Shown here piece by piece: positions 2,495-50,996 of a stretch of 58,741 nt of DNA; the first letter of the stretch is position 1; each line of letters starts with the position of its first letter. Under the pieces are notes generated by a model. The model was given only the letters and a program-made list of their open reading frames with translations. It had not been told where the DNA came from and ran no database searches. Source of the stretch: Clostridiales bacterium (GTDB lineage Bacteria > Bacillota > Clostridia > Peptostreptococcales > Anaerovoracaceae); NCBI GenBank assembly GCA_015058275.1, contig SVCQ01000011.1, positions 1 through 58,741 of the forward strand, given 5' to 3'. A program made the translations under genes and the position numbers.

Positions 2495-4012
2495 CTATTT
2501 CCCGTCCATATACTTCTTCGCATCCCTAAAGAAACTCCATATCATCAGCACCATAATAATCCCGATTGGAAACGCCGTAATGATGCTAATGCTCTGTATA
2601 TTGCTCATCGAACTCTCGGAGAAAGTAAGTGCGATCGGCAGCAATATCAACAGAACACACCACAGCAAAATGACCGTTCTGCCAGGCTTCTCATCTGTTC
2701 CGAGTCTTCGATAGCTATAGCAGGCCGCCGTGTAGGCAATTGAATCAAAAGATGTCGCATAAAAAGCCATCATACAAATCAGCAGCATAACCAGCATCAG
2801 TCCCGAGCCCGGAAGCGAGTCTATGACACTCATGATCACATGATAGGCGTCACCTCCCGCCTGATATTGCCCTACCAGGTTCACCGCTCCGCTCTGCTGC
2901 AGACCCAGTCCATAATTCCCCAAAACAACAAAGCTTACAATCGTTGATCCGACACCGAACAGATATCCGCCCAACACCGTCTGCCGGATTGTTCTGCCCT
3001 GGGAAATCTTCCCGATGAAGAACGGTGCCGCGATACACCAGACCATCCAATAAGCCCAGTAGTATATCGTCCAGTCCTGTGGGAAATGGTTCGTCCGCAT
3101 CGGATCTGTATAGGTTGCCAACCCAAGGAAATTCTGGATCATCTTGCCAAAGGACTGAAGACCATTTTCGATAATAAATCCAGCCTGACCTCCAATAAGA
3201 AACACAAGGATGATCAGGGCAAAGAAAAGAAAAATGCAGAGCTTTGCAAGCCAGGAGATGCCCTTGAATCCATGAATCGCAGCAAAGGTGTATACTGCAC
3301 AGGTAATCAACAGAATAAAAATCGTAAGCGTTGTCCTGGATAATGGTATTCCGAAAAGCTTCACAAGAATCTCGGACATCAGTGGCGTGGCTACTGAAAA
3401 TGTCGTTGCCGTCCCCGCTAAAAGAGCAAACAATGCGAACAGATCTATGATTCTTCCCGCCAGTCCGTCTGCGTGCTTTCCAATGACACCACGGCAGGCC
3501 TCGCTGTAACGCTGGCGGTTCACCTTCCGGACGTGCAGCATGAATCCAAACACGACAGCCAGCACCAGGTAAAATGCCCATGGAATAAAGCTCCAGTGAA
3601 AAAGCGGAAAAACACCGACCCATTCCTCCGGATTTCCAAGGTCTGCCAGATAGGGATTATCCGCATACATCACCCACTCCACAAAGCTGTAGAACAGAAT
3701 ATCTGCAGCCAGACCGCAGGTAAACATCATACTTCCCCAGGTAAAGAAGGAATATTTCGGTTTTTCTCCGGGAGAGCCAAGTACGATATCACCGTAACGG
3801 GAAAGGGACAGGAATAGCGAAACAGCAAGCACACCAAGTCCCATGATCAGATAAAAGGATCCCAGTGTATCTCCGAAGAAAAAACGAACCTTCGCGATCT
3901 GCCCGTTGGCTACCGAAGGATACAGAAACAAAAGCAGCGTGATTGCCCCTATCACAAGTAAGGGGAGCAACGTCAGCAGCCAGTCTATCTTTTTATTATC
4001 CATTTGCTTCAT
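2495..4012 (-). CDS. BCCT-family choline/betaine transporter (LicB/BetT role)
   Basis: This is a 505-residue, roughly 12-helix transporter of the BCCT (betaine/choline/carnitine) family, at the family's usual length. Typical landmarks are the Trp/Tyr-rich stretch around residues 300-320 (DWTIYYWAYWMVWC) and the Gly-rich helix near 340-360. The start ATG overlaps the stop of the LicC gene (ATGA), showing translational coupling. In Haemophilus lic1 and pneumococcal lic loci a choline permease is co-encoded with choline kinase and LicC, and this gene fills that place. Choline as substrate is inferred from context; betaine or carnitine are possible. Confidence 0.88.
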   Translation of the reverse strand: MKQMDNKKIDWLLTLLPLLVIGAITLLLFLYPSVANGQIAKVRFFFGDTLGSFYLIMGLGVLAVSLFLSLSRYGDIVLGSPGEKPKYSFFTWGSMMFTCGLAADILFYSFVEWVMYADNPYLADLGNPEEWVGVFPLFHWSFIPWAFYLVLAVVFGFMLHVRKVNRQRYSEACRGVIGKHADGLAGRIIDLFALFALLAGTATTFSVATPLMSEILVKLFGIPLSRTTLTIFILLITCAVYTFAAIHGFKGISWLAKLCIFLFFALIILVFLIGGQAGFIIENGLQSFGKMIQNFLGLATYTDPMRTNHFPQDWTIYYWAYWMVWCIAAPFFIGKISQGRTIRQTVLGGYLFGVGSTIVSFVVLGNYGLGLQQSGAVNLVGQYQAGGDAYHVIMSVIDSLPGSGLMLVMLLICMMAFYATSFDSIAYTAACYSYRRLGTDEKPGRTVILLWCVLLILLPIALTFSESSMSNIQSISIITAFPIGIIMVLMIWSFFRDAKKYMDGK

Positions 4013-4713
4013 AGCATTGTACTATAACTGTGATCGATTGCCGCCAGTTCCTCCAGAGAATCGATCTCCGCAACCGCTCCGTGTTTCATCTCCCGAATCC
4101 CGAGCCGGTATTCATTCGGATAGCAGAAAAGCGGAACATCGTCCCAATAGATACTGGTGTTTCCGCGTTCGAATTCATAAACGATATGCTCCGACAAACG
4201 CTTCCCGTCCTCTTTGCTCCATCTGCTGATGGAATAAAGCTGATATCCATGTGTGCCACCAGTTCGTGAGCAGGACTGAATTACACCGCCTTCCACATCC
4301 AGCAGCCATTCTTTTGTTTCTCCTTCACACCATGCAGCATTGTAACCGGAACGGTCAAATTCAGAATTCAAAACATCAGGATCATAGATCAGCTGATCTC
4401 CATCCATCACGATGGCATCTTGCAGATAATATCTTGTCACATAAAGCGAGCTGATGTTATTACAGGTTTCATAATATGGATTCTCAATCAGGTTCACTCC
4501 CGGATACGTCTCCGTCAGCCATTGGAACTTCTCTTTCTGATAACCCACAACGATATAAATCTCGGGAATCCCGTTCTGACGCAGGGCGGAGATGATACTT
4601 TCAATCATCCTTATGCCGTTCACTTTGATCAAAGGCTTTGGGGTTTCCATTGTCAGCGGATGAAGGCGTTCGCCCTTTCCGGCGGCCAGTATAATCGCTC
4701 TCTTGATTCTCAT
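4009..4713 (-). CDS. licC: CTP:phosphocholine cytidylyltransferase (LicC-like)
   Basis: This 234-residue nucleotidyltransferase would convert phosphocholine and CTP into CDP-choline. The N-terminal signature is clear: LAAGKGERLHPLTMETPKP at about residues 9-27 (GxGxRL, PKP), and a metal-binding DGD lies near residues 103-105. It is coupled on both sides: its start overlaps the choline kinase stop (ATGA), and its stop overlaps the transporter start. The sugar-nucleotidyltransferase superfamily has many substrates; the neighbouring LicA-like kinase and BCCT permease make CDP-choline the best call. Confidence 0.87.
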   Translation of the reverse strand: MRIKRAIILAAGKGERLHPLTMETPKPLIKVNGIRMIESIISALRQNGIPEIYIVVGYQKEKFQWLTETYPGVNLIENPYYETCNNISSLYVTRYYLQDAIVMDGDQLIYDPDVLNSEFDRSGYNAAWCEGETKEWLLDVEGGVIQSCSRTGGTHGYQLYSISRWSKEDGKRLSEHIVYEFERGNTSIYWDDVPLFCYPNEYRLGIREMKHGAVAEIDSLEELAAIDHSYSTML

Positions 4714-5618
4714 AGCTTCTTCATTTCATGCACAGCAATTTTATAATAATCCCTTGCATAACAATACTGCTTCAGCGCGTAGTCACCGAATTGCACGCCA
4801 AGCTGATGCTTGTATTCACACCAGTTGGACCATAAGAGTCCACAGGCAGCGATATAGCAGTATATCTTCACCCTTGCAGCCCGATCACACATATCTTCAA
4901 AATAAATATCAATCAGCCGGTCAATATTCTCCCTGCTGTAATCACTATACACACAGAACATGGCTACATCAATATGCGGATCCTGCATCCCGGCGTATTC
5001 CCAGTCTGTCAGCTGAAGATCATCGCCGCAGAAAAGAAAATTATCACACACCGCATCAATATGTGCCAGGCAGAAGTCCTTCTCCTGACTGTCAATGTAT
5101 TTTCTCAGTGCAAATACATTATTCTTCGTCTCAGTATAGTCCGGATAAATACTGCTGCGACCATTCCATAGCTCCTCATAGAATTCGATCTGCCCGAAAA
5201 GGTCGAAACGATGCCCTACCATCAGCTTCTCATTATGGAGCCTCCGCAACAGACCCATACTCCGTTTTACATCATCTTCATCATATGGATCGCAAACGTG
5301 TACGCCATCCAGATACTTTGTGATCTTGACTCCAGTATCCGGATTAATATAGACCGGATTATCACAGAAACCATAATTGGAGATTTCCCGATAAACCTCG
5401 GCCTCCTGTTGGCGATTTATCAGTCTCTCCGTCCCCTCACCGGGCACACGGATAATAAACTTTTGATCTTCAACAGAAAAGGCAAACGACCGATTGGTCA
5501 TGCCTTTCTTAAGTACATACCAGTCCGAAACCTCCGAAACACTAAACACATCACAAGCCAGGCGATAGGCCGCTTCTTCAGTTTTTATCTTTTCTGAGTG
5601 ATTCTCCTGTAATCTCAT
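4710..5618 (-). CDS. licA: Choline kinase (LicA-like)
   Basis: This 302-residue APH/choline-kinase-fold protein carries the Brenner loop HIDAVCDN at residues 186-193 (HxDxxxxN) and the metal-binding LTDWEYAG with Asp205. It would phosphorylate choline with ATP in the cytoplasm. The ATG at 5618 has GGAGG 9 nt upstream; the longer frame up to 5738 lies inside the preceding gene and has no SD. It overlaps the TagF-like gene by 41 bp and LicC by 4 bp, so the three are one translational unit. The order licA-licC-permease matches the phosphocholine pathway. Ethanolamine kinase is the main alternative. Confidence 0.87.
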   Translation of the reverse strand: MRLQENHSEKIKTEEAAYRLACDVFSVSEVSDWYVLKKGMTNRSFAFSVEDQKFIIRVPGEGTERLINRQQEAEVYREISNYGFCDNPVYINPDTGVKITKYLDGVHVCDPYDEDDVKRSMGLLRRLHNEKLMVGHRFDLFGQIEFYEELWNGRSSIYPDYTETKNNVFALRKYIDSQEKDFCLAHIDAVCDNFLFCGDDLQLTDWEYAGMQDPHIDVAMFCVYSDYSRENIDRLIDIYFEDMCDRAARVKIYCYIAACGLLWSNWCEYKHQLGVQFGDYALKQYCYARDYYKIAVHEMKKL

Positions 5619-6816
5619 GGTATTTGTCCTCCAGGTAGTCCGCAACTCTGACTGCGCCTTCTCCCGGATAGACCCAGGTCTCGGCACTGACCTCGCATCG
5701 CAGCTTCCTATATTTCTCGTCATGCAGGCACTCATCAATCATATTCTTCAGGTTCTCCATATTCTCTTCCGTCAATATCTGTCCGAGTCTCGGAATCGCG
5801 GTCGTTGACCAGCGTGGCGTATCCAGCCACCATGCATCATACGGGGAGTCATCAAACTTAGTATCCATGCAGATGACCGGCTTATCAAAGGCAAGAGAAA
5901 ACTCGTAAATAGTACCGGAGAAATCCGAAATCAAAATATCCGAGCGGTTCATGACATCAAAGTTATCAAGATCTGTATTCCACTCCAACTGATCGGATGC
6001 AGGAAAGGCATCAAGTATTGGCTGCAGCATATCCATTTCTGTGATATAGGACTGCGGATGCGGACGGATGATGATGTGGTATCCGGTTTCCAGCAACACT
6101 TCAATAATGCGGGAGCCGAACTTCCGCAAAATAGTACTCTCACCCCAGGATGGTGCGACAAGTACAGTCGTGTCATGTTCCGGTGCCGGATTCTTTTTCA
6201 GCCGGGTTACGATATCATCCATGTAAGGAATGCCCACCAGAACCATGTCTTTTGCAGGTTCATCCCTGAGTTTCTCCAAAGCCCTTGTATCATCAATCTG
6301 ATATTGGCCGGAAACGAGAAGGCCGTCGAAGAAGTCAATCCCAAACATACGATAGGTAGTCATTTCGTTGGCCCCATGCTGCATATGGACATACCACTTA
6401 ACTTCCTTACTTTTCTTCCACTGATAGACATCTAAGCCAGGCGTGGTTGCAAGGACAATGGTGGCGTTCAGGAAGTTCATTCTGGACAGTCCCTTGTTCC
6501 CCTCACCAATAAATTCCCCATGCAGATGAGGGTAAGGGGATGAAAGCCCGGGATCATCCGAAGATTGCGTCAGATAGACCATGTCAATGCCCCGTTTATC
6601 CAGTTCCCGTATCACAGGATCAAAGTTCTTCCAGTAACGTTTGTTATCAGAAAAAATAACAAAAGGTGTGGTGGCTGCATCAACCTTGACATTTCCTGCA
6701 GTCCTATATTTCATCTTCATATACAGCTTCCGTGCGCCAAACCAGGCCACAGAAATCAGACCTGTAGCGAGAGAGAACAGCATGGCACCAGTGCCAGGAT
6801 CGATATAGAGTTTCAT
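5578..6816 (-). CDS. CDP-glycerol glycerophosphotransferase-family (TagB/TagF-like) transferase
   Basis: This 412-residue protein has one N-terminal membrane segment (about residues 9-28) and a TagF-type GT-B catalytic region. Residues matching the family's essential histidines are present: MQHG (His147) and RPHP (residues 251-254). The CDP-alcohol-binding SDFSG (297-301) and the following Glu305 are also conserved. Known members move glycerol-phosphate or ribitol-phosphate from CDP-alcohols onto teichoic acids. No glycerol-3-phosphate cytidylyltransferase lies nearby; the only CDP-alcohol maker in the operon is LicC, so CDP-choline is a possible donor (inference). The SD GGAGG lies 7 nt before the ATG. 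Confidence 0.82.
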   Translation of the reverse strand: MKLYIDPGTGAMLFSLATGLISVAWFGARKLYMKMKYRTAGNVKVDAATTPFVIFSDNKRYWKNFDPVIRELDKRGIDMVYLTQSSDDPGLSSPYPHLHGEFIGEGNKGLSRMNFLNATIVLATTPGLDVYQWKKSKEVKWYVHMQHGANEMTTYRMFGIDFFDGLLVSGQYQIDDTRALEKLRDEPAKDMVLVGIPYMDDIVTRLKKNPAPEHDTTVLVAPSWGESTILRKFGSRIIEVLLETGYHIIIRPHPQSYITEMDMLQPILDAFPASDQLEWNTDLDNFDVMNRSDILISDFSGTIYEFSLAFDKPVICMDTKFDDSPYDAWWLDTPRWSTTAIPRLGQILTEENMENLKNMIDECLHDEKYRKLRCEVSAETWVYPGEGAVRVADYLEDKYHEITGESLRKDKN

Positions 6817-6829
6817 TTAGCTGCCTCCT

Positions 6830-7306
6830 TCACCTTTTCTCTTTAAAGACAAACCATTTACTTATCACATAGTTTCCTATGATCACAAGCACCTGTGCTA
6901 TTATCTTTACGATCAAACTGTCTATACTAAGAAGACTAATTCCAAGCCACAGTACCAATTCCTCCAGAATAAGCGTCCCTAATCTTCCAACAAAGAACGC
7001 TATACACTCCCGGATAACACCTCTTACACCATGAGCCTTATCCTTGAACACCCATGTCCGGTTTGTCACATAGGCAAAAGCGACGCAGATCACCCAGCAA
7101 ATGACATTTGCCCACAATGCATTCATAGCAAACGGATCCGTAAACAGCCAGAATAGGCCGATACTCAGAAGCGTTGTGAGTCCTCCAAATAGCAGGTAGA
7201 GCAGCTGCTCCTTAAACCGTTTGTAAAACGGTTGCAGGCTTCTCATCATTTCCCATGACATGATCCGGTCAAAGATATCCTGCCTCTCATTCATTCCGTT
7301 TCTCAT
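6830..7306 (-). CDS. GtrA-family membrane protein (putative lipid-linked sugar flippase)
   Basis: This 158-residue protein with four predicted membrane helices matches the GtrA/DPMS family, including the FxxxGxxxT-like helix (LLFGGLTTLLSIGLFW) and the NRTWVF turn around residues 80-85. GtrA proteins are proposed to flip undecaprenyl-phosphate-linked sugars made by a GtrB/CsbB-type glycosyltransferase, which is encoded immediately upstream with a 20-bp overlap. It acts in the cytoplasmic membrane. An ATG at 7294 is an alternative start. Confidence 0.85.
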   Translation of the reverse strand: MRNGMNERQDIFDRIMSWEMMRSLQPFYKRFKEQLLYLLFGGLTTLLSIGLFWLFTDPFAMNALWANVICWVICVAFAYVTNRTWVFKDKAHGVRGVIRECIAFFVGRLGTLILEELVLWLGISLLSIDSLIVKIIAQVLVIIGNYVISKWFVFKEKR

Positions 7307-8261
7307 ATGTCCTTTCGCTTATGATGAAACGTGGTCGTCCTTTCGTTTCCATATAGGTCTTGCCCACATATTCACCTATGATACCAAGTGCCGTAAGAAT
7401 CGAACCGCCTAGGAAACTGATGACGCAGATCAGACTCGCCCAGCCGGAGACTGTATGACCCGTTACCTGCGCTATGATCGCCCAGATGATCGCAATAATG
7501 CTCAATATAGTCACGATAAAGCCTAAGCCTGTGATAATCCGGATTGGTTTGATGGACAGACTTGTTATTCCGTCGAAGGCCAGCAACAGCATTTTAGACA
7601 GGGGATAATGACTCTTCCCGGCAAGCCTCTCATGCCGCTCGTAATATACCTCTGTGCTCGGAAATCCAATCAGCGGAATCATGCCGCGAAGAAAAAGATT
7701 CACCTCATGATAATTGGCAAACTCCTGCAACACACGGGAAGATATGAGCCGGTAATCCGCATGGTTAAAAACCACCTCCACGCCCATCCTCTTCAGTAGT
7801 TTATAATAAGCCTCAGCTGTAAACCGTTTGAAAAAGGTATCTGTGTCGCGCTTGCTCCTAACCCCGTAAACGACTTCATAACCGTTCAGATATTGCTCCA
7901 CCATCTCGTCCATGGCATTGATATCATCCTGCCCGTCGCAATCAATGGAGATTGTGATATCACACATATCTTTGGCTTCCATAAGTCCAGCAAGTACTGC
8001 GTTTTGGTGTCCACGATTGCGGCTCTGGGAAATACCGATAAAGTGTGAATCCTGCTGGGCAAGAGAGCAAATGATATTCCATGTCTCATCAGCAGAGCCA
8101 TCATTCACGAACATCACACGGCTTTCATCACTGATCATCCCGGCCGCCACGAGAGAAGAAATCTTATCCAGAAACTGCGGTGCAGTAATTGACAGCACGT
8201 CCTGCTCGTTGTAGCAAGGGATGATGATATATAGTTTTGGCTGGCTTCTGTCCATATGCAT
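7287..8261 (-). CDS. GT2 polyprenyl-phosphate glycosyltransferase (CsbB/GtrB-like)
   Basis: This 324-residue family 2 glycosyltransferase has an N-terminal catalytic domain (IIPCYNEQ near residue 13, VNDGSADET, SIDCDGQDD as the DxD site) and two C-terminal membrane helices at about 235-300. That architecture is typical of GtrB/CsbB/DPM1-type enzymes that load a hexose or HexNAc onto undecaprenyl phosphate. Together with GtrA and YfhO it forms the three-part glycosylation system known for LTA in Bacillus, Listeria and Staphylococcus. The sugar cannot be told from sequence. Confidence 0.88.
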   Translation of the reverse strand: MHMDRSQPKLYIIIPCYNEQDVLSITAPQFLDKISSLVAAGMISDESRVMFVNDGSADETWNIICSLAQQDSHFIGISQSRNRGHQNAVLAGLMEAKDMCDITISIDCDGQDDINAMDEMVEQYLNGYEVVYGVRSKRDTDTFFKRFTAEAYYKLLKRMGVEVVFNHADYRLISSRVLQEFANYHEVNLFLRGMIPLIGFPSTEVYYERHERLAGKSHYPLSKMLLLAFDGITSLSIKPIRIITGLGFIVTILSIIAIIWAIIAQVTGHTVSGWASLICVISFLGGSILTALGIIGEYVGKTYMETKGRPRFIISERTYEKRNE

Positions 8262-8270
8262 TCAGCCTCC

Positions 8271-10985
8271 TTAATCATTCAGTTTTGTCCAGTTATTCAT
8301 GTCAAAAATGGAATCGTGTACAGTCCACCAGCTATCCCCTTCTGTGTCAAAGACATATCCATTGTTTTTGTTCGTGTTCCACTTCCAAGAGTCTGTAACA
8401 TAGAGATTTCCTGATTTCATACTGTTGTTAATGGGATTTCCCGTAAAAGGATTCACAGGATCATCGATGATTCCCTGCATGGCTAAAGATGGCACATCCG
8501 CATTGGTCATAAATTCAGAACCGATCATAAACGGTTCATGTGCATCAAAATCTTTAACCATCAAAAGCGGCCAGAAAGATTCGACATCCAATCCGTCCTC
8601 TTTGGTAAGTTCTGAAAACTGCCCATGTTTATACCCATGATCCGCAACAAAGATGATTCGAGTGTTATCATACACCCCTTCTTCTTTCAAATAATCAAGC
8701 CATTTTCCGATTATTTTATATGTTGCAGCATTTGTGCTGTATGATTTCCATGTGTTATTGTCAAGCTTCATCGTCAGCCCGTTATAGTTCTTATCAGAAT
8801 ATGTAAGATCGACCTGTGACCCATCTGGCTCATATGAAGGTGGACTCATTGCAACCGGTTCATGGGGTGTTTCATTGTTCATCATCAGAAAATAGTTTTT
8901 ATCATCATTTTCTGCTTCGGTAATTTGGGGCAACGCATACAGTTCAGAGTAGCGATCAAAAAAAGCCTTCGTATAGCCTGTTTTATCCTTATTAATGCTA
9001 ATGTAATATCCATCGTTATAAACTGCCCCTTTTATAAACAAAGGCACGGTACGGAACAAGCTGTAATCGATGAAATGGTCCTTCTGATTCTCTGCTACAG
9101 CATGTAACGAAGCTTTAAAAGTTTCTATATATTTTCCCTCAAGCGTATAGGAACTGACATTCGGAACATCGTCAAATATAGACAGGTCGCTTGGTGTCTG
9201 ATAATTGGCACAAGGCACATCGCATACCGTAACATCATATCCACTTTTACTGAACAGAGTCGGCATCAGCTTCAGCGCCTCATTATGCTTGTCTTTCAGC
9301 AGCTCAGTTTTCCGTTTATTCATCTCTGCCGGAGAATACTCGTATCCGCCAAAAATCGCCGGAGAGCCATAATTGGTGCAAAGTCCAAAGGAAAGTGTAT
9401 CCTTGTAATATATAAACCCCTCAAACTTATCTTTCAGTTCCGGCAGTTCATCAAAAATATACGGCACATATCCACCTATAGCACGGTCGAGCATAAATAC
9501 AACGACATTCTTTCCGTTTTTGCTGAGATGAAGCACTTTATCCTCAGTTTTAGAAGAAACTAACGAGTTGTCTATTTTATTCGTCTCATTGCTGATCGAA
9601 ATAATATTGCTTATGCTTAAACCAAGCAGTGCGATTCCAATAATGACCGCGATCCTCTTTACCCACTGTGGGCGCTTTATAAACAGAATTAAAAAAACTA
9701 TAGCAGTTACTACGCATACAATGATATTTAGGACAAATCTGAATGTGTCAACCTCCAGGCTTCCTTCAAAGGTTAGATCAGCATATAGAATCCCAACCTT
9801 CGGGTCAAACAGGAACTGATTGATCAGTGCAATACCAAGGAAGATCCACAGAAGAACGGAAAGATTCCGTCTTTCTTTTTCCCCATCTCTAGAAAAGATG
9901 ATGATGACCATCCAAATCAGAAACATCCCGCCGTATACCATAGCGGGATAAGTAAGAAGTTCCCATTGAAATACTCCTGTTGACGTATTCACAAACTCAG
10001 TAACGGAAGAAGCCAGAACATTTGAAGGAATGAACACGCCCATTAAAAGAAAAAGACATACCCCTGTCAAAAGGACTAACGGCATCAGCTTCTGATTAGA
10101 ATCCATAGACATAAATACCGAGAAACGATGTATACTCTCCGGAACTTCGATATGATACTGCAAAACTACCGCTTTGACTATGATGAAGAGCGAAAAAAAG
10201 ATCAGACATTCTGCCACTAGCATATCCAAGTTGGTATCAACAGTATTCAGTACCATTCCTATTGGCATCAGAATTATAATCAATATAGCAGCACCAACAG
10301 ACAGTAGTTTTGTATTATTTTCTCTATTGGCATATACGATATTCTTACACAGTGAGAAAATCTGGTTCATGATCCAATAGATTACCAGACCTGAGGCACT
10401 GTTATAAAGCAATACCAAAAACACGGCAGCAACTCCATAGATCTGGATCTTTTGCCTAAGCGGCCCTCCCTTGGAATAGATAAACCCAGATATACAGTTA
10501 ATAACTGTCATAACTATAGGGAGCAGGTTAATTGATAATCCCCCAATCGTAATGAGCCCGTCAGGAGCCAGCAGATCTGGGATTGGTCCGAAAGAGGCTC
10601 CAGCAAGCATTGGGATATTGGAAACATACTTATACGCAGCGATAAAGAAGGGAATTTGCAAAAGCAATGGTCCGGCTTCCTTCAGCACGCTGAGAGGATT
10701 ATAATGCGCTATCCTGTAATATGCGGACTGCATCATAAAACGCTCGTCACCGGAAAAGTGCTTACGAATATGCGTAATATACGGACGCATCTGCTTTTCC
10801 TTCTCGATCTCCTCCCGCTGCATCAGATCCGCCTTCCGATACAGCGGCAGGGCAAGAAAGTTAACTGCAATGCTGAATGCCAGAATCGCCAGGACAGGCT
10901 CTTCGATCAGACCATAGAGCAAAGTAAAGATTAGATTATAAACAACCACAAGAGGCTGGATAAGGATATTATACAGAATGTTCAT
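8271..10985 (-). CDS. Fusion of YidC/Oxa1-like membrane domain with sulfatase/LTA-synthase-like domain
   Basis: This is a 904-residue two-part protein. Residues 1-220 resemble a YidC/Oxa1 insertase core: the PL turn at about 47, the HYNPL loop at 94-98, LLLQIPFF at 107-114, and SGLVIYWIMNQIF at 198-210. The position normally holding the groove arginine is Asn42. Further membrane helices follow to about 460. Residues 490-900 are an extracytoplasmic alkaline-phosphatase/sulfatase-fold domain with plausible catalytic residues: Asp500 (FMLD), Thr537 (CTNYGSPA), His708 (TPHEP), and Asp782/His783 (ADHG). LTA synthase and phosphoethanolamine transferases share this fold. I know of no described role for the fusion. 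An AAGGAG lies about 13 nt before the ATG, somewhat far. Confidence 0.8.
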   Translation of the reverse strand: MNILYNILIQPLVVVYNLIFTLLYGLIEEPVLAILAFSIAVNFLALPLYRKADLMQREEIEKEKQMRPYITHIRKHFSGDERFMMQSAYYRIAHYNPLSVLKEAGPLLLQIPFFIAAYKYVSNIPMLAGASFGPIPDLLAPDGLITIGGLSINLLPIVMTVINCISGFIYSKGGPLRQKIQIYGVAAVFLVLLYNSASGLVIYWIMNQIFSLCKNIVYANRENNTKLLSVGAAILIIILMPIGMVLNTVDTNLDMLVAECLIFFSLFIIVKAVVLQYHIEVPESIHRFSVFMSMDSNQKLMPLVLLTGVCLFLLMGVFIPSNVLASSVTEFVNTSTGVFQWELLTYPAMVYGGMFLIWMVIIIFSRDGEKERRNLSVLLWIFLGIALINQFLFDPKVGILYADLTFEGSLEVDTFRFVLNIIVCVVTAIVFLILFIKRPQWVKRIAVIIGIALLGLSISNIISISNETNKIDNSLVSSKTEDKVLHLSKNGKNVVVFMLDRAIGGYVPYIFDELPELKDKFEGFIYYKDTLSFGLCTNYGSPAIFGGYEYSPAEMNKRKTELLKDKHNEALKLMPTLFSKSGYDVTVCDVPCANYQTPSDLSIFDDVPNVSSYTLEGKYIETFKASLHAVAENQKDHFIDYSLFRTVPLFIKGAVYNDGYYISINKDKTGYTKAFFDRYSELYALPQITEAENDDKNYFLMMNNETPHEPVAMSPPSYEPDGSQVDLTYSDKNYNGLTMKLDNNTWKSYSTNAATYKIIGKWLDYLKEEGVYDNTRIIFVADHGYKHGQFSELTKEDGLDVESFWPLLMVKDFDAHEPFMIGSEFMTNADVPSLAMQGIIDDPVNPFTGNPINNSMKSGNLYVTDSWKWNTNKNNGYVFDTEGDSWWTVHDSIFDMNNWTKLND

Positions 10986-11033: not shown

Positions 11034-13898
11034 TTATTCTGTCTGATTCGTTTCCATTGCTGCATGATTCCCTGTGTTCTCCTTATCAGGATTGATTGGC
11101 TGGTCTGTAACTTCTCCCTTTTCAGCAACCATATTCCCAATCTTTCTTCGTTTTCTGCTGTCCAAAAAAACATAAATTATGATCAGAATCAAGGCGGCTC
11201 CGGCTGCCAGTGTACCGGTCTTCAAGCCTGACGGCATGAATGTCATTTCATAAGTATGTTCGCCCGGTTCCACATCTGCTACCATGAACACCCCCAGACC
11301 CTTATTCAGCTCCGTTTTTTTGCCATCCACAGTCAGCGTCCAGCCCTCATCGTAAGGGATAGTGAACATCAACTCTTGACCCGCTTCTGCTGTAAATGTG
11401 CCTTTCAGATGACTGTCAGTGACTTTCTCGATCGTTGAAGGTAGGCTTAAGATTTGCTGACTCATCTCAGCCAATACTGCATCATCCACATATGCTATCT
11501 GAAACCTGCCAGCTACTTCTTCCAACAGATACTCAGTTACAAATGAGTTTGTCACTGGGAGATATCCCGTGACTGTATCCCCTTTGTGGTAATAGCCTTC
11601 ATAGTTCATGGAAGGAATGTAAGATCCCATTTTATCCATCATACCGGAACGATTATAGGAGTATACTGCTCCATCGCGTATCGCCGTGAATGTATACATG
11701 ATGTAGTGAGTATTTTCCGGCTCTATTTGGAAAGTGCCACGCCTCTGATATTCATCCGCTTTGTACACTGATTCATCATTGCTATCCGAAAGTTTGCCAG
11801 CTTGATTATTCAATATTTTCTCATTTCCCAAAGCACCCGATGTTTCCTCTGTAGAAATCCCGGAACTTCCCACCGACGATGTCTGGGCGCTTATGGAAGC
11901 ATCTCTCGATGCCATTTTTTTCTTCGCCTCCTCATGGCTCAGTTCCTCTGGGTCTGAGATGTTATGTGAGGAAAAGTTAATATTCTCCTCTTCAATAAAT
12001 ATACGTTTATCATTTCCTGTTATAGCCGACCAGGTGCGATTCAAATTATCAAAGACATCCTCAAAATCAATCTCTACCTCTGAAACTCCTGAATCCGCAA
12101 GCATGCCAATAGGCAACGCATAAGGATTCTGATAAAGTGACCATTCTTCAACCTCTACTTTCTTTTCATAACCCTTCTCCTCAGTAAGATCTTCTTTCGA
12201 GACGATATACTTCAGGCCGAGAAGCGTATCCGTTGCAGAAGGTATACCTCTGCCATAGCTGTTACGCATATCGTAGCGATGAACACCCAGCTCACTGAGT
12301 GCAGTCCGCACAAAATCCCTATCATCTGATCCTCCATGACCCACGCCATAGTATCCATAGAGCATCGGATCGTTTCCACAGTTTCCTGATCGCTGTTCGC
12401 CGACCTCCATGCGGTAAAAAGCATTGTCGCTGCCATGAGTCGCATCCACCAGTACGCTTACAGGCATCACGGTTTTCTGATACTCGCTCTCCTTATTAGT
12501 CCACTCCATAACATTCTTGGTAGAGAGAATGTAATTCAAATACAGATTTACGCACATCAGAACCAGAACAACCATAGAAAAGACACGTTCCGGATTCTTT
12601 ACAGGATTCTTCTGATGCATCCAATATGCCAGGAGCATGAGCGCAAGGATAGAAAAATCCAGCAGTGCCATTGTTCCGCTGACATACTCAAACTTCTTCG
12701 AGAAAATGATCAGTGCAGCTACAACCAGAATCACTGCCGCACGTTTCATATTCTTGCCCGGTTCATCCGTAATGTGTTGCCATTCTTCTGCCGCGATCAT
12801 CAGCATCAAGAAGCAAAAGACAAAGGAATCCCGGTAGTTAAACCAGTTTGTCACTGTGCCTCCATGCATAACGATGTTGAAAGCAACTACATAGAAGGAA
12901 ACAAGATATGCAATAAGAAGTACTGCCGCAACTGTTCTTCTTTGCTTCGTGATTTTTTTGTTCATAAAGAAGAGAATCACCAAGAAGACCGGAAGGATAC
13001 CCACAAAAATATTCGGCAAGCCGTTTTGAAGCTCCGTCGTGGAATTGGCTCCAGTAAAGAGTTTAGAAAACATATCAAGAAAGGGCATGTTCTCTTTAAA
13101 GGAGATAACATTAGCAATTGACTGATCCAGTCTACCACCACGCAGAGAAAGAAGTGCCGGAAGCCAGACCACAGAGGAGAGGATTCCAGCAAGGATCGAC
13201 GAGATAATGTATTTTATCGCAATCCGCTTGTTGTTTTCTCTCTGCTTTCTCTCCGCAATGAAGACCGCAAGAAAAATCAAGAATGAAGCAACGCAGAGCA
13301 TAAAACCAAAATAAAAATTGGTCAAAAGCGCATATGCTATAGAAAGGATGTAAATGATTGGATTCTGATCCCTTAGTAGTCTACGAAGCCCCATCACCAT
13401 GATGGGAAGAACAGGGATCACAGAGAAGAAGTTCAACTGAAAGACATTCGCTACCAGAAAGCCGTTCAGCGCATAGGCGGTGGAAAAAATCAGGTCGCTG
13501 CCTTTATGCCCATAAATATCCTTCAGCAAAATGTACATGGTCAGTCCGCAGACACAAAAATTGAGCAGAGACACCCAAGTATACATGGACATAAAGTTTA
13601 TCACGTCTGCAAAAGCGAATAACGCAAAAAAAGGGTTCAAAAGGAACCATCCCCAGGAACCCATCATGTTTCCTCCCAGACCCTTTTCAAAAGAAAAAAG
13701 AATCCCCTCTTGCCCATGAACAGCGCGGCCGACATACCCCATATAATTAATATACAGAGCGTTACCATCAGAGATTACCAGGGAATTGTCCCCGAATGGC
13801 GTAATCCCCAATCCAACCAACGCGGTTAAGATAACAACGGCCGGAATTCCAAAGGATAAAATATAAAATATGATCGATTTATTTCTGATTTTCCTCAT
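11034..13898 (-). CDS. YfhO-family GT-C membrane glycosyltransferase
   Basis: This 954-residue protein has many membrane helices across residues 1-480 and an extracytoplasmic C-terminal part ending with one more helix near 890-910 (LAAGAALILIIIYVFL). The sequence matches the YfhO family: an acidic DGNALYINY loop near residue 45, the FxxxKGLGGNMMGSWGW region near 70-85, and the WFNYRDSFVFCF helix. YfhO uses undecaprenyl-phosphate sugars to glycosylate lipoteichoic acid outside the membrane, with a CsbB-type donor enzyme; such an enzyme is downstream. A Ser/Thr/Glu-rich linker lies near residues 640-700. It is the first gene of the operon; AGGGGA precedes the ATG. Confidence 0.85.
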   Translation of the reverse strand: MRKIRNKSIIFYILSFGIPAVVILTALVGLGITPFGDNSLVISDGNALYINYMGYVGRAVHGQEGILFSFEKGLGGNMMGSWGWFLLNPFFALFAFADVINFMSMYTWVSLLNFCVCGLTMYILLKDIYGHKGSDLIFSTAYALNGFLVANVFQLNFFSVIPVLPIMVMGLRRLLRDQNPIIYILSIAYALLTNFYFGFMLCVASFLIFLAVFIAERKQRENNKRIAIKYIISSILAGILSSVVWLPALLSLRGGRLDQSIANVISFKENMPFLDMFSKLFTGANSTTELQNGLPNIFVGILPVFLVILFFMNKKITKQRRTVAAVLLIAYLVSFYVVAFNIVMHGGTVTNWFNYRDSFVFCFLMLMIAAEEWQHITDEPGKNMKRAAVILVVAALIIFSKKFEYVSGTMALLDFSILALMLLAYWMHQKNPVKNPERVFSMVVLVLMCVNLYLNYILSTKNVMEWTNKESEYQKTVMPVSVLVDATHGSDNAFYRMEVGEQRSGNCGNDPMLYGYYGVGHGGSDDRDFVRTALSELGVHRYDMRNSYGRGIPSATDTLLGLKYIVSKEDLTEEKGYEKKVEVEEWSLYQNPYALPIGMLADSGVSEVEIDFEDVFDNLNRTWSAITGNDKRIFIEEENINFSSHNISDPEELSHEEAKKKMASRDASISAQTSSVGSSGISTEETSGALGNEKILNNQAGKLSDSNDESVYKADEYQRRGTFQIEPENTHYIMYTFTAIRDGAVYSYNRSGMMDKMGSYIPSMNYEGYYHKGDTVTGYLPVTNSFVTEYLLEEVAGRFQIAYVDDAVLAEMSQQILSLPSTIEKVTDSHLKGTFTAEAGQELMFTIPYDEGWTLTVDGKKTELNKGLGVFMVADVEPGEHTYEMTFMPSGLKTGTLAAGAALILIIIYVFLDSRKRRKIGNMVAEKGEVTDQPINPDKENTGNHAAMETNQTE

Positions 13899-14234: not shown

Positions 14235-14606
14235 TTACTCGACTGTAACTGAACCGCTAGCATTGATTTTAACGGTATAATCATTACCATTTGTCTTAGC
14301 ACTAACTGTAACCTCGCTAGTGCCTGTCTCGTTCATAGTCTCAAGCTTTCCAAGAGTAGAATCCTGCCAATCAGCCTGCTTCTGCTGAGCAGTAACAGTA
14401 GCTTCATGTTCAGACCCATCTGTCAAATACTGGGTTGTTACTGTACCGTAGGCAGCACGAATATTTGCCATATCAGTTGCCTCACGGCTCTTCTCGAGCT
14501 GGCCTGTGAATACCGGGATAGCGATAGCTACCAGTACTGCGATGATTGCTACTACGATGAGCAGCTCAGCGAGTGTGAAACCTTTTCTGTTTCTCTTGTT
14601 CTCCAT
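14235..14606 (-). CDS. pilA: Type IV prepilin (major pilin candidate)
   Basis: This 123-residue prepilin has a short basic leader ending in RKG, then FTLAELLIVVAIIAVLVAIA, with the conserved Glu at mature position 5. Cleavage by PilD after the Gly is expected, leaving a hydrophobic helix and a small Thr/Ser-rich globular domain. The SD AAAGGAG precedes the ATG, and a strong sigma-A promoter lies about 110 nt upstream. It has its own promoter at the end of the pil operon and is compact, so I regard it as the major pilin; two longer prepilins at 24775 and 27861 may be minor or alternative subunits. Confidence 0.92.
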   Translation of the reverse strand: MENKRNRKGFTLAELLIVVAIIAVLVAIAIPVFTGQLEKSREATDMANIRAAYGTVTTQYLTDGSEHEATVTAQQKQADWQDSTLGKLETMNETGTSEVTVSAKTNGNDYTVKINASGSVTVE

Positions 14607-14721
14607 TTTTTATTCTCCTTTTCTTAAGATTGATAAAATAATTATCTGGAATGATTTGTCCGGGTCTTATACGGATCCGCTCCCTCCGAACGGGTCCTCT
14701 GTGACCCTCCACACTTGAGTT

Positions 14722-14750
14722 ATTATAACTCTGTCATTTTATAATTTCAA
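14722..14750 (-). promoter_or_regulatory. pilA sigma-A promoter
   Basis: On the minus strand -35 TTGAAA (14750-14745) and -10 TATAAT (14727-14722) have a 17-bp spacer. Transcription would begin near 14715, giving a leader of about 110 nt that contains small inverted repeats such as GGGTC/GGACCC. The same hexamers and spacing occur in front of pilB. Confidence 0.75.
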
Positions 14751-14796
14751 CGTCTGTTTACTATGAATCCCAGTAAGTACAAGGATCATCCCAGGC

Positions 14797-15381
14797 CTAT
14801 TCGTTGATGTCCTCCTCGTCAGCCGGTAGAGCCGAGTCTGCGGCGCCTCCCACCATGGTCTCAAAGAATGTACCATTGAGAGATACTGTGACAGCTCCAT
14901 TGCGGGATGAGCAGTTCATATCGCCTATCATACATCTGTACTCGCCGTGTGTCATGTCGTACAGGATCGCCTCGGCGGTCTTGTAATCAGGCACGCTGAA
15001 CTGCAGAGTGAATCCTCTCCTGATCTGATTGCCCTCTCTTGTGACCGCGTCAAAGGCTATATTGTAGTCACTCACGCTGTCGAGGACAGTGTGCATGAAC
15101 GCAGTCTCCTGCTTGCTGCTGTTATAGCTGCCCATCTTGGAGACGACTCCGGTCGTCTTGTATCCCTGCATCTCGGACTTCATCTGCTTGATGCGCGCTG
15201 ATCTCGCCTCGGCAAAGTCAAGCTCTGTCTGCAGCTCCGAGGCATCCGCTCTTGCGGACATCGTAGCCTCGTTTATATTTACATAAAACAGCCTGTAATA
15301 CAGCAGGACGACTACGCCGACTGCAAGTATTGCTAACAGTATCTTTTCCTTTTTGGAGAAGTTCTTTGTCATGCTTTTCAT
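14797..15381 (-). CDS. pilO: PilO-like pilus inner-membrane alignment protein
   Basis: This 194-residue bitopic protein has a basic N-terminus, one membrane helix at about residues 13-32 (ILLAILAVGVVVLLYYRLFY), a coiled-coil region around 40-70 and a periplasm-type globular domain. Size, topology and its place directly after PilN fit PilO, which with PilM and PilN couples the pilus motor to the machine. Its ATG overlaps the PilN stop (TAATG). The C-terminus is acidic. Identification is by position and topology rather than by strong motifs. Confidence 0.75.
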   Translation of the reverse strand: MKSMTKNFSKKEKILLAILAVGVVVLLYYRLFYVNINEATMSARADASELQTELDFAEARSARIKQMKSEMQGYKTTGVVSKMGSYNSSKQETAFMHTVLDSVSDYNIAFDAVTREGNQIRRGFTLQFSVPDYKTAEAILYDMTHGEYRCMIGDMNCSSRNGAVTVSLNGTFFETMVGGAADSALPADEEDINE

Positions 15382-16058
15382 TACTCTGCCTCCTCCTCTG
15401 TATTGTCTGCCTCATTATCCTCTGCCGGCGCCGGGGCCTCGACCTCCTGTCCGTCCGCCGGTGTCATCAGATATACGATAAACGATACCTCTACATCGCC
15501 GGTCTCGTGGTTCCTGCCCTTGTCAGCCGTGTTGATGACGCAGCGCTCTACGATAGGCTCTCTCTCAAGCGCCGCAGCCACCTGGTTGAGTCCTGACAGC
15601 GATGTGCCGTCGACCTGGAGCGTCATCACATTGCCGCTTACAGTCCAGCTTATGAAGGATCCGCCCGCTGCCTCAGCCTTCTCGACAAGTCTCATGACGC
15701 TGATCCTGTCTATCCTCGAGAGCTCCTCGGATGTCATGCCCTCAGTTGTGTAGTGGGCGTATTCCTCCTCTACATCCTGCATGGACTCTATCGTCTTGTT
15801 GGCGTCATCGATCCTCGACTGGAGGTCCTTGACCTGCGACTTGGCCGATGTCATCTGTACCAGAGGTCTGATCACCAGGAAGATGAGCAGCAACAGCACG
15901 ACGAGCGCCGCGAGTATTACCTCAAGCACGCCCTTACGGGTCGTAAGCAGGCCTTTTTTAGGCGGCACGAGGTTGATGGAAGTCTTCGTAGGGTAATTGC
16001 CCTTTGATCCCTTGCCGAAGCTTATTTCTTTGTCTAGATCTAATTTAAATCCTGCCAC
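15381..16058 (-). CDS. pilN: PilN-like pilus assembly protein
   Basis: This 225-residue protein begins with a GTG at 16058, supported by GGAGG 8 nt upstream. A cytoplasmic N-terminus carries the motif SINLVPPKK at about residues 27-35, matching the conserved INLLP-type motif by which PilN binds PilM. One membrane helix follows at about 46-66, then a coiled coil and a ferredoxin-like domain. The last 25 residues are a Pro/Ala/Glu/Asp tail. It sits between pilM (18 bp gap) and pilO (1-bp overlap). Confidence 0.83.
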   Translation of the reverse strand: MAGFKLDLDKEISFGKGSKGNYPTKTSINLVPPKKGLLTTRKGVLEVILAALVVLLLLIFLVIRPLVQMTSAKSQVKDLQSRIDDANKTIESMQDVEEEYAHYTTEGMTSEELSRIDRISVMRLVEKAEAAGGSFISWTVSGNVMTLQVDGTSLSGLNQVAAALEREPIVERCVINTADKGRNHETGDVEVSFIVYLMTPADGQEVEAPAPAEDNEADNTEEEAE

Positions 16059-16076
16059 TTATATAACCTCCCCCGC

Positions 16077-17144
16077 TTAGTCGATGGCTATGCCGATAGC
16101 CTGTACAAAGCTGTTGCAGTCAGGGATCTCATCCCCATCCGTTACCAGCTCTGACGCTGTGTGAAGTCTCATGTCGAGCATCTCTCCGATGGCCACCGCC
16201 AGAGGGTTGATAGCCGCAGCGCCTCCGCAGAGCCAGAGATCCGTCAGATTGCTGTCCGGATTACTGAATCTGTAGAAGTTCATGGCTCTCATCAGCTCGA
16301 TCGCTATATTTTCATATGCCTGGCGGCATTCCTCTCTCTCGAGGCAGTTCTCAAAGTTGTTGAGAAGGTATGTATGAGCGAGATGGACCTCGACGTTGTA
16401 AAGATCAGCTATAACGTTGTCGAGCGACGACAGACCTATATCGAGCTCACGAGTCGCAACGTGTCTGTCTCCCTTGAACATGTACATACGTACAGATTCA
16501 TATCCCAGATCGAGTATGCCGAATTCATCTGTAGTCTGGGACAGCACGTCCATCTGCTGCCTGATAAGAGATATATACGCGCAGATAGCAGGAGCGGCCT
16601 TGACCAGCTTCAGTCCGGCTCTCCTGAGCATCGCGGCGATGTTCTCTATATCATCGCGGCGTCCTCCGACAGCCATGAGGTTGAGTGTCTCCTCCTTTGG
16701 CTCTTCTGCCGGAGTTTCCTCTTCTTCAGGTGAAACAGGTTCCTGTTCAGGTGCAGTCTCCTCCTTGACTTCTTCCTTTTCATCAGGCGGAAGAACTGCA
16801 TAGTCAAAGACATAGTCCTTAACCTCGCCTGTGATATAGTCATTAAACTCATAAGGCAGGTTGTAGACCAGCTGCTCCTTTGTCATCATCGGCATCTTGA
16901 CGTTCTTGACGTATACCGATGAGTTGGACATTACAAATGCGGCGTTATTAGCCTTGATACCGTTGTCCTTTAAGGTCTTTGCGATGAGCTCGCTCAGCAG
17001 TTCAGTGGAAGTGAACTTACCGTCCTTTACAAGGTTCTCAGGCATCTTGACCGCGACCGCATCGAGGACGTATCCGTCCTCAACGAGTGCGAGCTTGAGT
17101 CTGTCTACCCCCGCGTCTATTCCGAGAATTTGATTTTTTGCCAT
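16077..17144 (-). CDS. pilM: PilM-like actin-fold pilus assembly ATPase
   Basis: This 355-residue actin/FtsA-like protein starts at the ATG at 17144 with GGAG about 9 nt upstream; a longer in-frame start at 17252 lies inside the pilD gene and is rejected. The phosphate-1 motif IDAGVDRLKLAL is at about residues 9-20, a second DLGYESVRMYMF is near 213-224, and a glycine-rich CGGAAAINP near 310. PilM recruits PilN on the cytoplasmic side. An unusual Pro/Glu-rich acidic insert of about 35 residues lies around 110-150, which canonical PilM lacks. Confidence 0.83.
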   Translation of the reverse strand: MAKNQILGIDAGVDRLKLALVEDGYVLDAVAVKMPENLVKDGKFTSTELLSELIAKTLKDNGIKANNAAFVMSNSSVYVKNVKMPMMTKEQLVYNLPYEFNDYITGEVKDYVFDYAVLPPDEKEEVKEETAPEQEPVSPEEEETPAEEPKEETLNLMAVGGRRDDIENIAAMLRRAGLKLVKAAPAICAYISLIRQQMDVLSQTTDEFGILDLGYESVRMYMFKGDRHVATRELDIGLSSLDNVIADLYNVEVHLAHTYLLNNFENCLEREECRQAYENIAIELMRAMNFYRFSNPDSNLTDLWLCGGAAAINPLAVAIGEMLDMRLHTASELVTDGDEIPDCNSFVQAIGIAID

Positions 17145-17170
17145 ATTACGTACTCCGTTTGTACTTTGTG

Positions 17171-17968
17171 CTAGAGTCCCAGGAGTCCCTGGTACCAGTT
17201 TATAAGCGGTTCGCCGTACAGCAGCATAAGCGCTGCGGCGCCCGCGATCCATGGTCCGAACGGGAACGCAGTCCCCTTGTCGGACGCTTTATTGGCTATA
17301 AGATTGTATATAAGGCCCGCGATGCAGGCGATTATCAGTGTAAACAGCGTGCCCGTTATGCCAAGATACAGGCCGACGACAGCTATGAGCTTGATGTCGC
17401 CTCCGCCCAGGGTGTCCCTGCCCATGATCCGGTCCATGATCAGTGATACGGCGAGCAGTCCTCCGCCAAAGAGCAGCGCAGCCGCTGCGTGCGCCAGTAT
17501 CTCTCCGCGGCCCATATGCAAGAGAGGCAGTGCGGCGATCCATGTGATCACAGCTGCGACATGGCAGCCGTCAGGGATTATCATGTCGTCTATATCCGTA
17601 AGCGTCAGCATGAACAGCACGCAGAGGAAGATATAGTTCCTCAGGCACAGCCATGTCAGATCGAATCTCAGCAGGCACAGCACCGTGATGATGCCGAATG
17701 CCAGCTCTGTCAGCGGATATCTCGCGGATACCTTTGCGCCGCAGTACCTGCAGCGCCCTTTGGATGACAGCCAGCTGATGAGCGGTATCAGGTCCCTTAT
17801 CCCGAGATCATGCCCGCAGCTGGTGCAGTGGCTGTGTCCCTTGAGGAAGGACTCCTCTCTGACCGATCTGTACGCGGCGCAGTTGAGGAAGGACCCCATG
17901 CATGTGCCGAGTATAAAGGCCGCTGCCACGCAGTATATCAGCATAGGTGTGTATTCATATATGCTCAT
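17171..17968 (-). CDS. pilD: Prepilin peptidase / N-methyltransferase
   Basis: This 265-residue polytopic aspartic protease cleaves the type IV prepilin leaders and N-methylates the mature residue. Two CxxC pairs (CTSC, CRYC at about residues 48-76) form the usual zinc site of the methyltransferase loop. The catalytic aspartates are in TDIDDMIIPD (about 122-131) and GGGDIKL (about 189-195). Its start overlaps the upstream pseudopilin-like gene by 4 bp (ATGA). Confidence 0.93.
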   Translation of the reverse strand: MSIYEYTPMLIYCVAAAFILGTCMGSFLNCAAYRSVREESFLKGHSHCTSCGHDLGIRDLIPLISWLSSKGRCRYCGAKVSARYPLTELAFGIITVLCLLRFDLTWLCLRNYIFLCVLFMLTLTDIDDMIIPDGCHVAAVITWIAALPLLHMGRGEILAHAAAALLFGGGLLAVSLIMDRIMGRDTLGGGDIKLIAVVGLYLGITGTLFTLIIACIAGLIYNLIANKASDKGTAFPFGPWIAGAAALMLLYGEPLINWYQGLLGL

Positions 17969-18639
17969 GATTTATATGCGTCTCCCGTCCAGCCGTCGTC
18001 TGCGTGCCAGATGGCGCAGTAATCCTCATCGGCATATACAAAATAATTGACTTCACCCTCCGCGTCCGTGCCGTAAAACGACACTATACCGTCAAAGCCA
18101 TCCGTCTCGGATGTCCCGCGCCTTATATTGACCTCCTCTGTCACGTATACGCATTTGAGAGGCTTGCTGTTGACCGTGATGACTATCTCCTCAGGCTCAG
18201 GGTCTCCCTCCTTGGCCTTTTCGAGTATATTCTTGCGCTCCTCAAGCAGCTGATTGCCCGCGTACGTAGCATTGAGCCTGGTCCTCTCGCGGACATTTCT
18301 GTCGTGCAGTCCGCACAGCGGCTCAAGTATCCCCTCGCTGTTGCGTATAAGGTAGACGTTGCCGCCGTTCGGACAGATGTCCGGACGGGCCGGCATCACC
18401 TCATCGAGGGTCCGCCTGGCCTCCTTGAGACTGCTCTCATCGAATGTATCAAGGTAGGCGATCACAAGCCCGTCCTTTGCGGACTTCATGGCCTGCTCGC
18501 AGGCTATGCATTGCCATTCATAATTGAATCGCTTGAGTGCCGGTATCGACAGTATGAACACGAGTATCAATATAACGACTGACAGTATTACGAGTATTCG
18601 CGCTGTGCCGCCGTATGTACTTCGCAGCTTGTCTGTCAT
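17965..18639 (-). CDS. Pilus-locus protein with N-terminal membrane anchor (pseudopilin-like)
   Basis: This 224-residue protein has an N-terminal membrane helix at about residues 13-33 and a globular domain containing CPNGGNVYL and a later CGLHD. Cys-Pro-x-Gly-Gly and Cys-x-x-His elements recur in minor pilins and pseudopilins of Firmicutes. The normal prepilin site (Gly then Phe-Thr-Leu-x-Glu) is absent, so it may be a non-cleaved subunit or an adaptor. It lies between pilC (6 bp) and pilD (overlap), so a role in pilus assembly is likely. No specific family is claimed. Confidence 0.6.
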   Translation of the reverse strand: MTDKLRSTYGGTARILVILSVVILILVFILSIPALKRFNYEWQCIACEQAMKSAKDGLVIAYLDTFDESSLKEARRTLDEVMPARPDICPNGGNVYLIRNSEGILEPLCGLHDRNVRERTRLNATYAGNQLLEERKNILEKAKEGDPEPEEIVITVNSKPLKCVYVTEEVNIRRGTSETDGFDGIVSFYGTDAEGEVNYFVYADEDYCAIWHADDGWTGDAYKS

Positions 18640-18644
18640 GATCC

Positions 18645-19865: not shown

Positions 19866-19875
19866 TTAGTGATCC

Positions 19876-20925: not shown

Positions 20926-20943
20926 ATAATTACTCCTTTGTAT

Positions 20944-21053: not shown

Positions 21054-21086
21054 AGTACTGACTTGTCACTCCGCTATGTCAGGTTT

Positions 21087-49514: not shown

Positions 49515-49515
49515 G

Positions 49516-50973: not shown

Positions 50974-50996
50974 GGCATCGACCTCCTGTTACAAAT

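Follow-up and report, generated by a model that had tools for sequence, protein, structure and literature searches.

EptA and MCR-1 transfer head groups on the outer side of the membrane, and the streptococcal rhamnan enzymes GacH and SccH belong to the sulfatase family. To our knowledge, neither these proteins nor PptA carry a YidC domain, and we know of no PF04464 partner of GacH or SccH. Here, we describe a gene in which a YidC-like domain is joined to an LtaS-like membrane part and a sulfatase-fold domain. It lies in a stretch of 58,741 nucleotides from a Clostridiales bacterium (assembly GCA_015058275.1, contig SVCQ01000011.1), which is referred to in full as the window, and a gene for a TagF-like (PF04464) enzyme lies close to it (Table 1). 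We propose, tentatively and at somewhat less than even chances, that the fusion and the TagF-like enzyme form an inside-to-outside relay of head groups by which phosphocholine or aminoethylphosphonate is attached to a surface polymer.

The N-terminal domain of the fusion resembles insertases of the YidC/Oxa1/SpoIIIJ type in its fold and five-helix core, but differs from them by the absence of a basic groove residue, by an insert at residues 52–55, by its separate branch in trees, and by the enzyme fused to it. The remaining part is LtaS- and LtaP-like, as modelled, in its five predicted helices, its outward alkaline-phosphatase-fold domain and the invariant threonine at the nucleophile position, whereas the YidC-like domain in front and the linkage to genes for CDP-choline or CMP-2-aminoethylphosphonate (CMP-AEP) set it apart. 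PptA and EptA/MCR-1 share with the fusion the outward head-group transfer that we propose for it, and MCR-1 is its top structural match. The excerpted text of a 2023 survey (PMC10434233) lists the donor of PptA as a gap in knowledge, and reports that Lic-1 is absent from N. meningitidis and N. gonorrhoeae. According to excerpts of PMC11754754, sugars are first placed by a polyprenyl-phosphate-glucose system, with glucosylation by SccN/SccM, and SccH then modifies them with glycerol phosphate taken from phosphatidylglycerol; excerpts of PMC8035078 describe how CsbB/GtcA/YfhO glycosylate teichoic acids. The sugar-placing part of the streptococcal systems is resembled by GtrB, GtrA and YfhO of the window, but the head group is expected to differ from that of the fusion.

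As in Lic-1 (LicA-B-C-D), the window has a LicA-like gene, a LicC-like gene and a betaine/carnitine/choline transporter (BCCT) gene in one run. In contrast to Lic-1, LicD was not found in the window genome or in two other genomes (G038 and G113), where the TagF-like enzyme and the fusion occur instead. Two fusion loci (L040 and L057) resemble PntC tailoring loci in that phosphoenolpyruvate (PEP) mutase, phosphonopyruvate decarboxylase, a transaminase and a LicC-like enzyme are found together. CDP-choline and CMP-AEP are parallel donors according to the excerpted text of PMC6697681, in which the words 'sulfatase', 'insertase' and 'glycerophosphotransferase' do not occur.

The YidC-like domain and the sulfatase-fold enzyme

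Pfam models matched the window fusion above their cut-offs in both halves, 60KD_IMP (PF02096) over residues 32–218 (76.4 bits, cut-off 35) and Sulfatase over residues 492–789 (E 1e-9, 38.6 bits, cut-off 25). Relatives came from a species-wide scan with a nine-row alignment over one genome per species (84,980 species), in which the best 80 of 524 confirmed stretches gave 79 loci; with the window and six more, 86 loci were examined. Both scan patterns sit in the YidC-like domain, and sulfatases without that domain lie outside the reach of the scan. At least one fusion open reading frame (ORF) was present in 83 of the 86 loci, and 105 altogether, which bears out the original prediction of a YidC-type core fused to a sulfatase-fold enzyme, and rules out a chance joining or misassembly. 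The ORF caller, which keeps the longest non-overlapping ORFs, returned no fusion at L105, L124 and L131. The 83 loci include one contig twice (L033 and L116), two pairs from single genomes (L040 and L041; L122 and L125) and two [Clostridium] aminophilum records (L076 and L127), and the window was counted by its first 24000 bases.

The carriers among the matches listed were mostly rumen and gut Clostridia, together with one each of Schwartzia, Phascolarctobacterium and Solobacterium, and a record that bears the label actinobacterium. Cultured carriers among them include Schwartzia succinivorans, Butyrivibrio sp. MB2005 and [Clostridium] aminophilum. The fusion occurred in 5 of 148 genomes of the window's taxonomic family and, at E 1e-25, in 3 of 398 genomes of its phylum, the window genome included. 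A single-sequence scan of genome contigs gave no confirmed relatives, and a scan of plasmids gave YidC-domain matches only (9 records, none spanning 80% of the query). The enzyme families are known, but their union with a YidC-type domain and the swapped form described below are without description in the open-access literature searched by title, which mostly excludes subscription journals and contained no paper on a protein joining a YidC domain to a sulfatase or a TagF-like enzyme. The earlier statement that no characterised protein is like it thus holds within that literature, but as a sequence family the protein is not unique. Two to five fusion copies, not all of them side by side, were found in 16 of the 83 loci. 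At L128, L065, L096 and L135, three to five fusion genes surround a single TagF-like gene, perhaps one for each acceptor.

In the alignment of 101 copies (4 of the 105 ORFs were left out for length), D500, T537, H708, D782 and H783, the putative catalytic set named from the window sequence, were identical in every copy. By analogy with related enzymes, T537 is the predicted nucleophile, and the other four are predicted metal and substrate ligands. The YidC motifs named in the original prediction fared less evenly: QIPFF (residues 110–114) and SGLVIYW (198–204) stand, but NPL (96–98) is present in the window copy and is not a feature of the family, in which position 96 is mostly lysine, position 98 is mostly threonine, and the proline alone is retained (94/101).

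An AlphaFold2 model of the whole fusion from a 73-row alignment had a mean predicted local distance difference test (pLDDT) score of 86.7 and a predicted template modelling (TM) score of 0.77, with pLDDT below 50 at residues 282–284 and 286–294; residues 1–225 alone gave 90.3 and 0.81. Foldseek with the N-domain model returned YidC entries alone below E 0.05 (3wo6, 6al2, 3wo7, 3wvf, 6y86 and 5mg3_C), with TM scores of 0.67/0.71 against 3wo6, as anticipated for a YidC-like N-terminus. With the whole model, MCR-1, PbgA, phosphonate monoester hydrolases, LtaS and LtaP were matched at E values of about 1e-6 to 1e-7 and target-normalised TM scores of 0.34–0.49, an MCR-1 entry ranking first. The predicted helices may be read as three groups, five in a YidC core, two in a hairpin and five in an LtaS-like part, and this reading would place the sulfatase domain outside. 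The loops placed outside contain 0, 0, 0, 0, 0, 1 and 2 lysines plus arginines, and those placed inside contain 10, 1, 0, 1, 0 and 1; the charge rule therefore helps this topology mainly through one large inner loop. The hairpin has a hydrophobic stretch in 90 of the 101 copies; of the 11 copies without it, those inspected have mostly short charged linkers, by which the helix parity is kept.

The YidC-like domain has diverged in its groove. The position of the groove arginine is occupied by N in 93, S in 4 and Q in 2 of the 101 fusions, with 2 gaps, whereas 31 standalone YidC proteins have R in 19 and K in 9; a basic residue is thus found in none of the 99 fusion copies that have a residue there, and in 28 of the 31 standalone proteins. 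The fusion domain also has the four-residue insert at 52–55, with A52 and D53 conserved, and is set apart from YidC by the invariant T160, N163, Y194 and N207. In trees, fused and standalone YidC were separated at 100/100, and the stem between them was 4.8 or 4.4 changes per column long; samples of 30 (first tree) and 20 (second tree) of the 101 fused rows were used, always with the window copy, the bootstrap of the first tree was not yet settled, and the long-branched standalone rows L049 and L055 were left out of the second. On these sequence grounds, we regard the domain as a very divergent YidC paralogue. A separate standalone YidC was found in 6 of the 7 fusion genomes checked, that of the window included, and none was found in G113 (91% complete), so that a role as the cell's sole housekeeping insertase was rejected.

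Across residues 31–220, conservation is higher than over most of the sulfatase domain, which argues that the YidC-like domain is not a relic. Together with the retained YidC fold, this would suit a dedicated insertase or chaperone that inserts or folds the membrane part of the fusion, its partner, or a pilin or other surface protein that the sulfatase domain then modifies; the window fusion also follows a type IV pilus gene run, and PptA places phosphocholine on Neisseria pilin (excerpt of PMC10434233). We consider this explanation rather improbable. It is opposed by the loss of the basic groove residue and the separate YidC, by the NCBIfam model yidC_oxa1_cterm (TIGR03592), which the window fusion scores at 73.6 bits, under the cut-off of 84.3, and by the pilus genes themselves, as PilB- and PilC-like genes were found in 1 of the 83 loci, that of the window ('PilT' labels occur at L117, L125 and L134). 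A general pilin-modifying role was rejected on the latter count.

The TagF-like partner and the exchange of modules

Neither the TagF-like partner nor the head-group genes, the divergence of the groove or the domain-swapped version figured in the original prediction. The window partner scored 35.7 bits against PF04464 (cut-off 22.1), and H144, H147, RPHPQS and SDFSG were conserved at 95% or more in 73 of the 78 copies aligned; phmmer with the TagF-like protein against solved structures gave no matches. A PF04464 partner was present in 77 of the 83 loci and adjoined the fusion in 73. Among 80 adjacent same-strand pairs, 68 had the order partner then fusion, the median gap was 1 base pair (bp), and 75 lay within 50 bp. 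The motif YIDPGTG was found in 76 of the 78 partners, and the first 260 residues of every other ORF called at these loci were without it. A Y(I/L)DPxT membrane motif, which elsewhere marks the start of a TagF-like enzyme or of a sulfatase, also occurs in a 101-residue protein at L150:7962-8267 (minus strand) with no NCBIfam matches.

Among the 148 family genomes, the partner (E 1e-30) was present in exactly the five that have the fusion. By simple draws, such an overlap is expected once in about 5.5e8, a figure to be read with the five genomes coming from three genera and being non-independent. LicC-like genes were found in 18 of the 148, including all five fusion genomes, and G082, which belongs to the same genus as the window genome, had neither fusion, nor partner, nor LicC-like gene.

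In four of the family genomes, the YidC-like domain is joined to the TagF-like enzyme. In G097 (L137), a 691-residue protein matched both PF02096 (E 6.5e-32) and PF04464 (E 1.2e-7) above the cut-offs, and is followed by a 679-residue protein with AYIDPATTTYIIQ near its start, which resembles the sulfatase part of the window fusion (E 8e-7) and has no Pfam matches at E 0.001; a paralogue at L136 has a Sulfatase match below the cut-off. A LicC-LicA fusion and a BCCT gene lie beside the mirror fusion of L137. The mirror fusion is whole in G097 and G129, in two pieces in G133, and probably split over contig ends in G014; G045 (L138) had no matching gene. A sulfatase-type gene adjoins it in all four genomes, that of G133 being a single tblastn match of 35% identity; L136 has four sulfatase-type copies in a row, and in G129 the motif occurs as YLDPST on the separate 101-residue protein. 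The window-type fusion had no matches in these four genomes in the 148-genome search.

The two mirror YidC domains placed in the tree grouped with standalone YidC, apart from the window type, both fused groups being on long stems. This suggests that two separate fusions likely brought a YidC-type domain to the same enzyme pair, and in our view the module swap is the strongest sign that these modules work together. If the YidC-like domain were a scaffold that tethers the enzyme beside its partner, the gene order and the module swap would fit well, as both show that the set of parts is what is kept. However, the invariant polar T160, N163 and N207 in predicted membrane helices exceed the needs of a tether, and two apparently separate fusions both took a YidC-type domain, so we give a scaffold-only role little chance.

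Head-group genes and a possible relay across the membrane

The genes around the window fusion are collected in Table 1; for the counts across loci, each neighbour was labelled, without curation, by its best phmmer match at E 1e-8, with one reference per label. Elsewhere in the window, at 47619-51093 (minus strand), a tRNA-SeC was found together with ORFs that read as SelA- and SelB-like, indicating a selenocysteine user.

Table 1. Features of the window and of the mirror-fusion loci.
Feature	Position	Strand	Basis or remark
YidC-like, LtaS-like membrane part and sulfatase-fold fusion gene, 904 aa	8271..10985	-	ATG start, no internal stops
YidC-like domain, residues 1-220	10326..10985	-	PF02096 (E 3.2e-21); Foldseek of N-domain model to 3wo6
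Asn42 codon, aligned with the groove arginine of YidC (R366 in E. coli, as numbered in the alignment)	10860..10862	-	Hidden Markov model alignment
Two-helix hairpin, residues 221-276	10158..10325	-	Model helices, hydropathy
LtaS-like five-helix membrane part, residues 297-479	9549..10097	-	Model helices, hydropathy and charge
Alkaline-phosphatase/sulfatase-fold domain, residues 485-904, predicted outside	8274..9533	-	Pfam, alignment, model, Foldseek
TagF-like (PF04464) partner, N-terminal YIDPGTG, 412 aa	5578..6816	-	Two genes from the fusion
LicA-like choline kinase	4710..5738	-	PF01633 (E 9.2e-13); longest ORF, TTG, true start probably further in
LicC-like nucleotidyltransferase	4009..4713	-	PF12804/PF00483; LicC by place beside LicA
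BCCT transporter	2495..4012	-	PF02028 (E 9.9e-117)
GtrB/PgfS-like polyprenyl-phosphate sugar transferase	7287..8261	-	PF00535; PgfS model 209 bits, cut-off 500
GtrA-like flippase	6830..7306	-	PF04138
YfhO GT-C glycosyltransferase	11034..13898	-	PF09586 (E 1.5e-153)
Type IV pilus genes in a run that lies immediately upstream of the YfhO and fusion genes	14235-22838	-	Pilin; PilM/N/O-like, prepilin peptidase, PilC, PilT and PilB by ORF reading
Mirror fusions and neighbouring sulfatase-type genes	L137:6508-8583 and 8580-10619; L150:8301-12880; L151:4232-8274; L136:1-9493

A head-group gene was recognised in 45 of the 83 loci, a nucleotidyltransferase in 39, and these counts may be low because the ORF caller did not pick up LicA of the window. 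A label of PEP mutase or phosphonopyruvate decarboxylase was given to ORFs at L040, L057, L079, L101 and L135; at L040, PEP mutase, phosphonopyruvate decarboxylase and aminoethylphosphonate aminotransferase exceeded the NCBIfam cut-offs. The PEP mutase at L040:14657-15952 has an N-terminal cytidylyltransferase-like domain (PF01467 and PF13714). All seven fusion genomes checked had a LicC/PntC-like gene. LicD gave no matches in the window genome (G000, 82.8% complete), G038 (98%) and G113 (91%), each with a LicC-like gene, nor was it found in G082. In G135, of the same genus as the window genome, four genes for choline-binding-repeat proteins follow one another just upstream of the fusion, flanked by LicC-LicA and the TagF-like gene (L031:3113-10363), and the one protein scanned was over the cut-off for Choline_bind_3 and Choline_bind_1. 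The second fusion locus of G393 (L041:12370-19784) contains, by reading, an MttB-type methyltransferase, a corrinoid protein, a BCCT transporter and a LicC-LicA fusion, a set that perhaps reflects a betaine-type route to the head group.

Taken together, these linkages led us to the following model. LicA and LicC, or phosphonate enzymes at other loci, would make CDP-choline or CMP-AEP in the cytoplasm. The YIDPGTG end of the TagF-like enzyme would hold it at the membrane, where the enzyme would load the phosphocholine or phosphonate onto an acceptor of the inner face, either a lipid or a lipid-linked one; the polar, uncharged groove of the YidC-like domain would let the head group or lipid reach the outer leaflet; and the outward sulfatase-fold domain would transfer the head group to a surface glycan or teichoic acid, the acceptor in the window perhaps being a sugar added by GtrB/GtrA/YfhO. 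We infer the pathway, and phosphocholine as the head group in the window, from gene linkage, and the lipid-linked donor, the passage through the groove and the acceptor are conjectural. A lipid-gate role for the YidC-like domain is reasonable by analogy, because excerpts of PMC10491306 report lipid scrambling in vitro by E. coli YidC and by other insertases of the Oxa1 family, and lipid passage in simulation as well. For the polymer synthase or decorating enzyme with a lipid gate suggested at the outset, the gene neighbourhoods point towards surface decoration with a zwitterionic head group.

Several observations weigh against this relay. The window partner is not adjacent to the fusion, as GtrB and GtrA lie between them, and 38 of the 83 loci have no recognised head-group gene, some of the contigs being short. 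GtrB was found in 6, GtrA in 2 and YfhO in 1 of the 83 loci, so the sugar step is not general, and a general dependence on these genes was rejected. Of the four mirror loci, L137 alone has recognised head-group genes beside it; G014 has LicC-like genes elsewhere in the genome, and G129 and G133 have none at E 1e-15. The two mirror YidC domains that were read keep a lysine in the groove, so charge loss is not needed for the role, and a charge-free groove as a requirement is weakened. LicD is present in four of the seven fusion genomes (G135, G144, G393 and G464), and is therefore another candidate phosphocholine transferase there. Finally, CDP-glycerol is a conceivable substrate, because its synthase exceeded the cut-off in the window genome, G135 and G144, and the other four fusion genomes gave weaker matches.

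The last two points would also fit a polymer synthase, in which a teichoic-acid-type chain is made or lengthened jointly by the TagF-like enzyme and the LtaS-like part, with phosphatidylglycerol or CDP-glycerol as the source of glycerol phosphate. The YidC-like domain would then pass or steady the growing chain, and LicD or another enzyme would add the zwitterion in a separate reaction. LtaS and LtaP are among the closest folds, the predicted five helices and outward domain follow the layout of LtaS, and PF04464 is a glycerophosphotransferase family. We nevertheless hold this unlikely, although less so than the insertase and scaffold roles: four of the seven fusion genomes lack a CDP-glycerol synthase over the cut-off, whereas all seven have a LicC/PntC-like gene; two further open frames of the window genome, of 741 and 935 residues, encode sulfatase-family proteins that are candidates for an ordinary synthase; and the 16 loci with two to five fusion copies suit a variety of acceptors better than one backbone synthase.

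In a bolder reading, to which we give roughly one chance in three, a fold of the YidC superfamily was turned from protein insertion to a conduit for zwitterionic head groups or parts of lipid-linked glycans, and was welded to the outer transferase in one lineage and, independently, to the inner, CDP-dependent transferase in another; the result would be a synthase-translocase-transferase for surface decoration that takes the place of LicD in some genomes. Some phosphocholine-bearing species have no known route, according to the excerpted 2023 survey (PMC10434233). How bacteria bring phosphocholine and aminoethylphosphonate to their surfaces is understood in part, and the two-gene unit, seen in dozens of rumen and gut genomes, offers a testable second route; it might, moreover, be a physiological example of lipid passage through a YidC-type groove.

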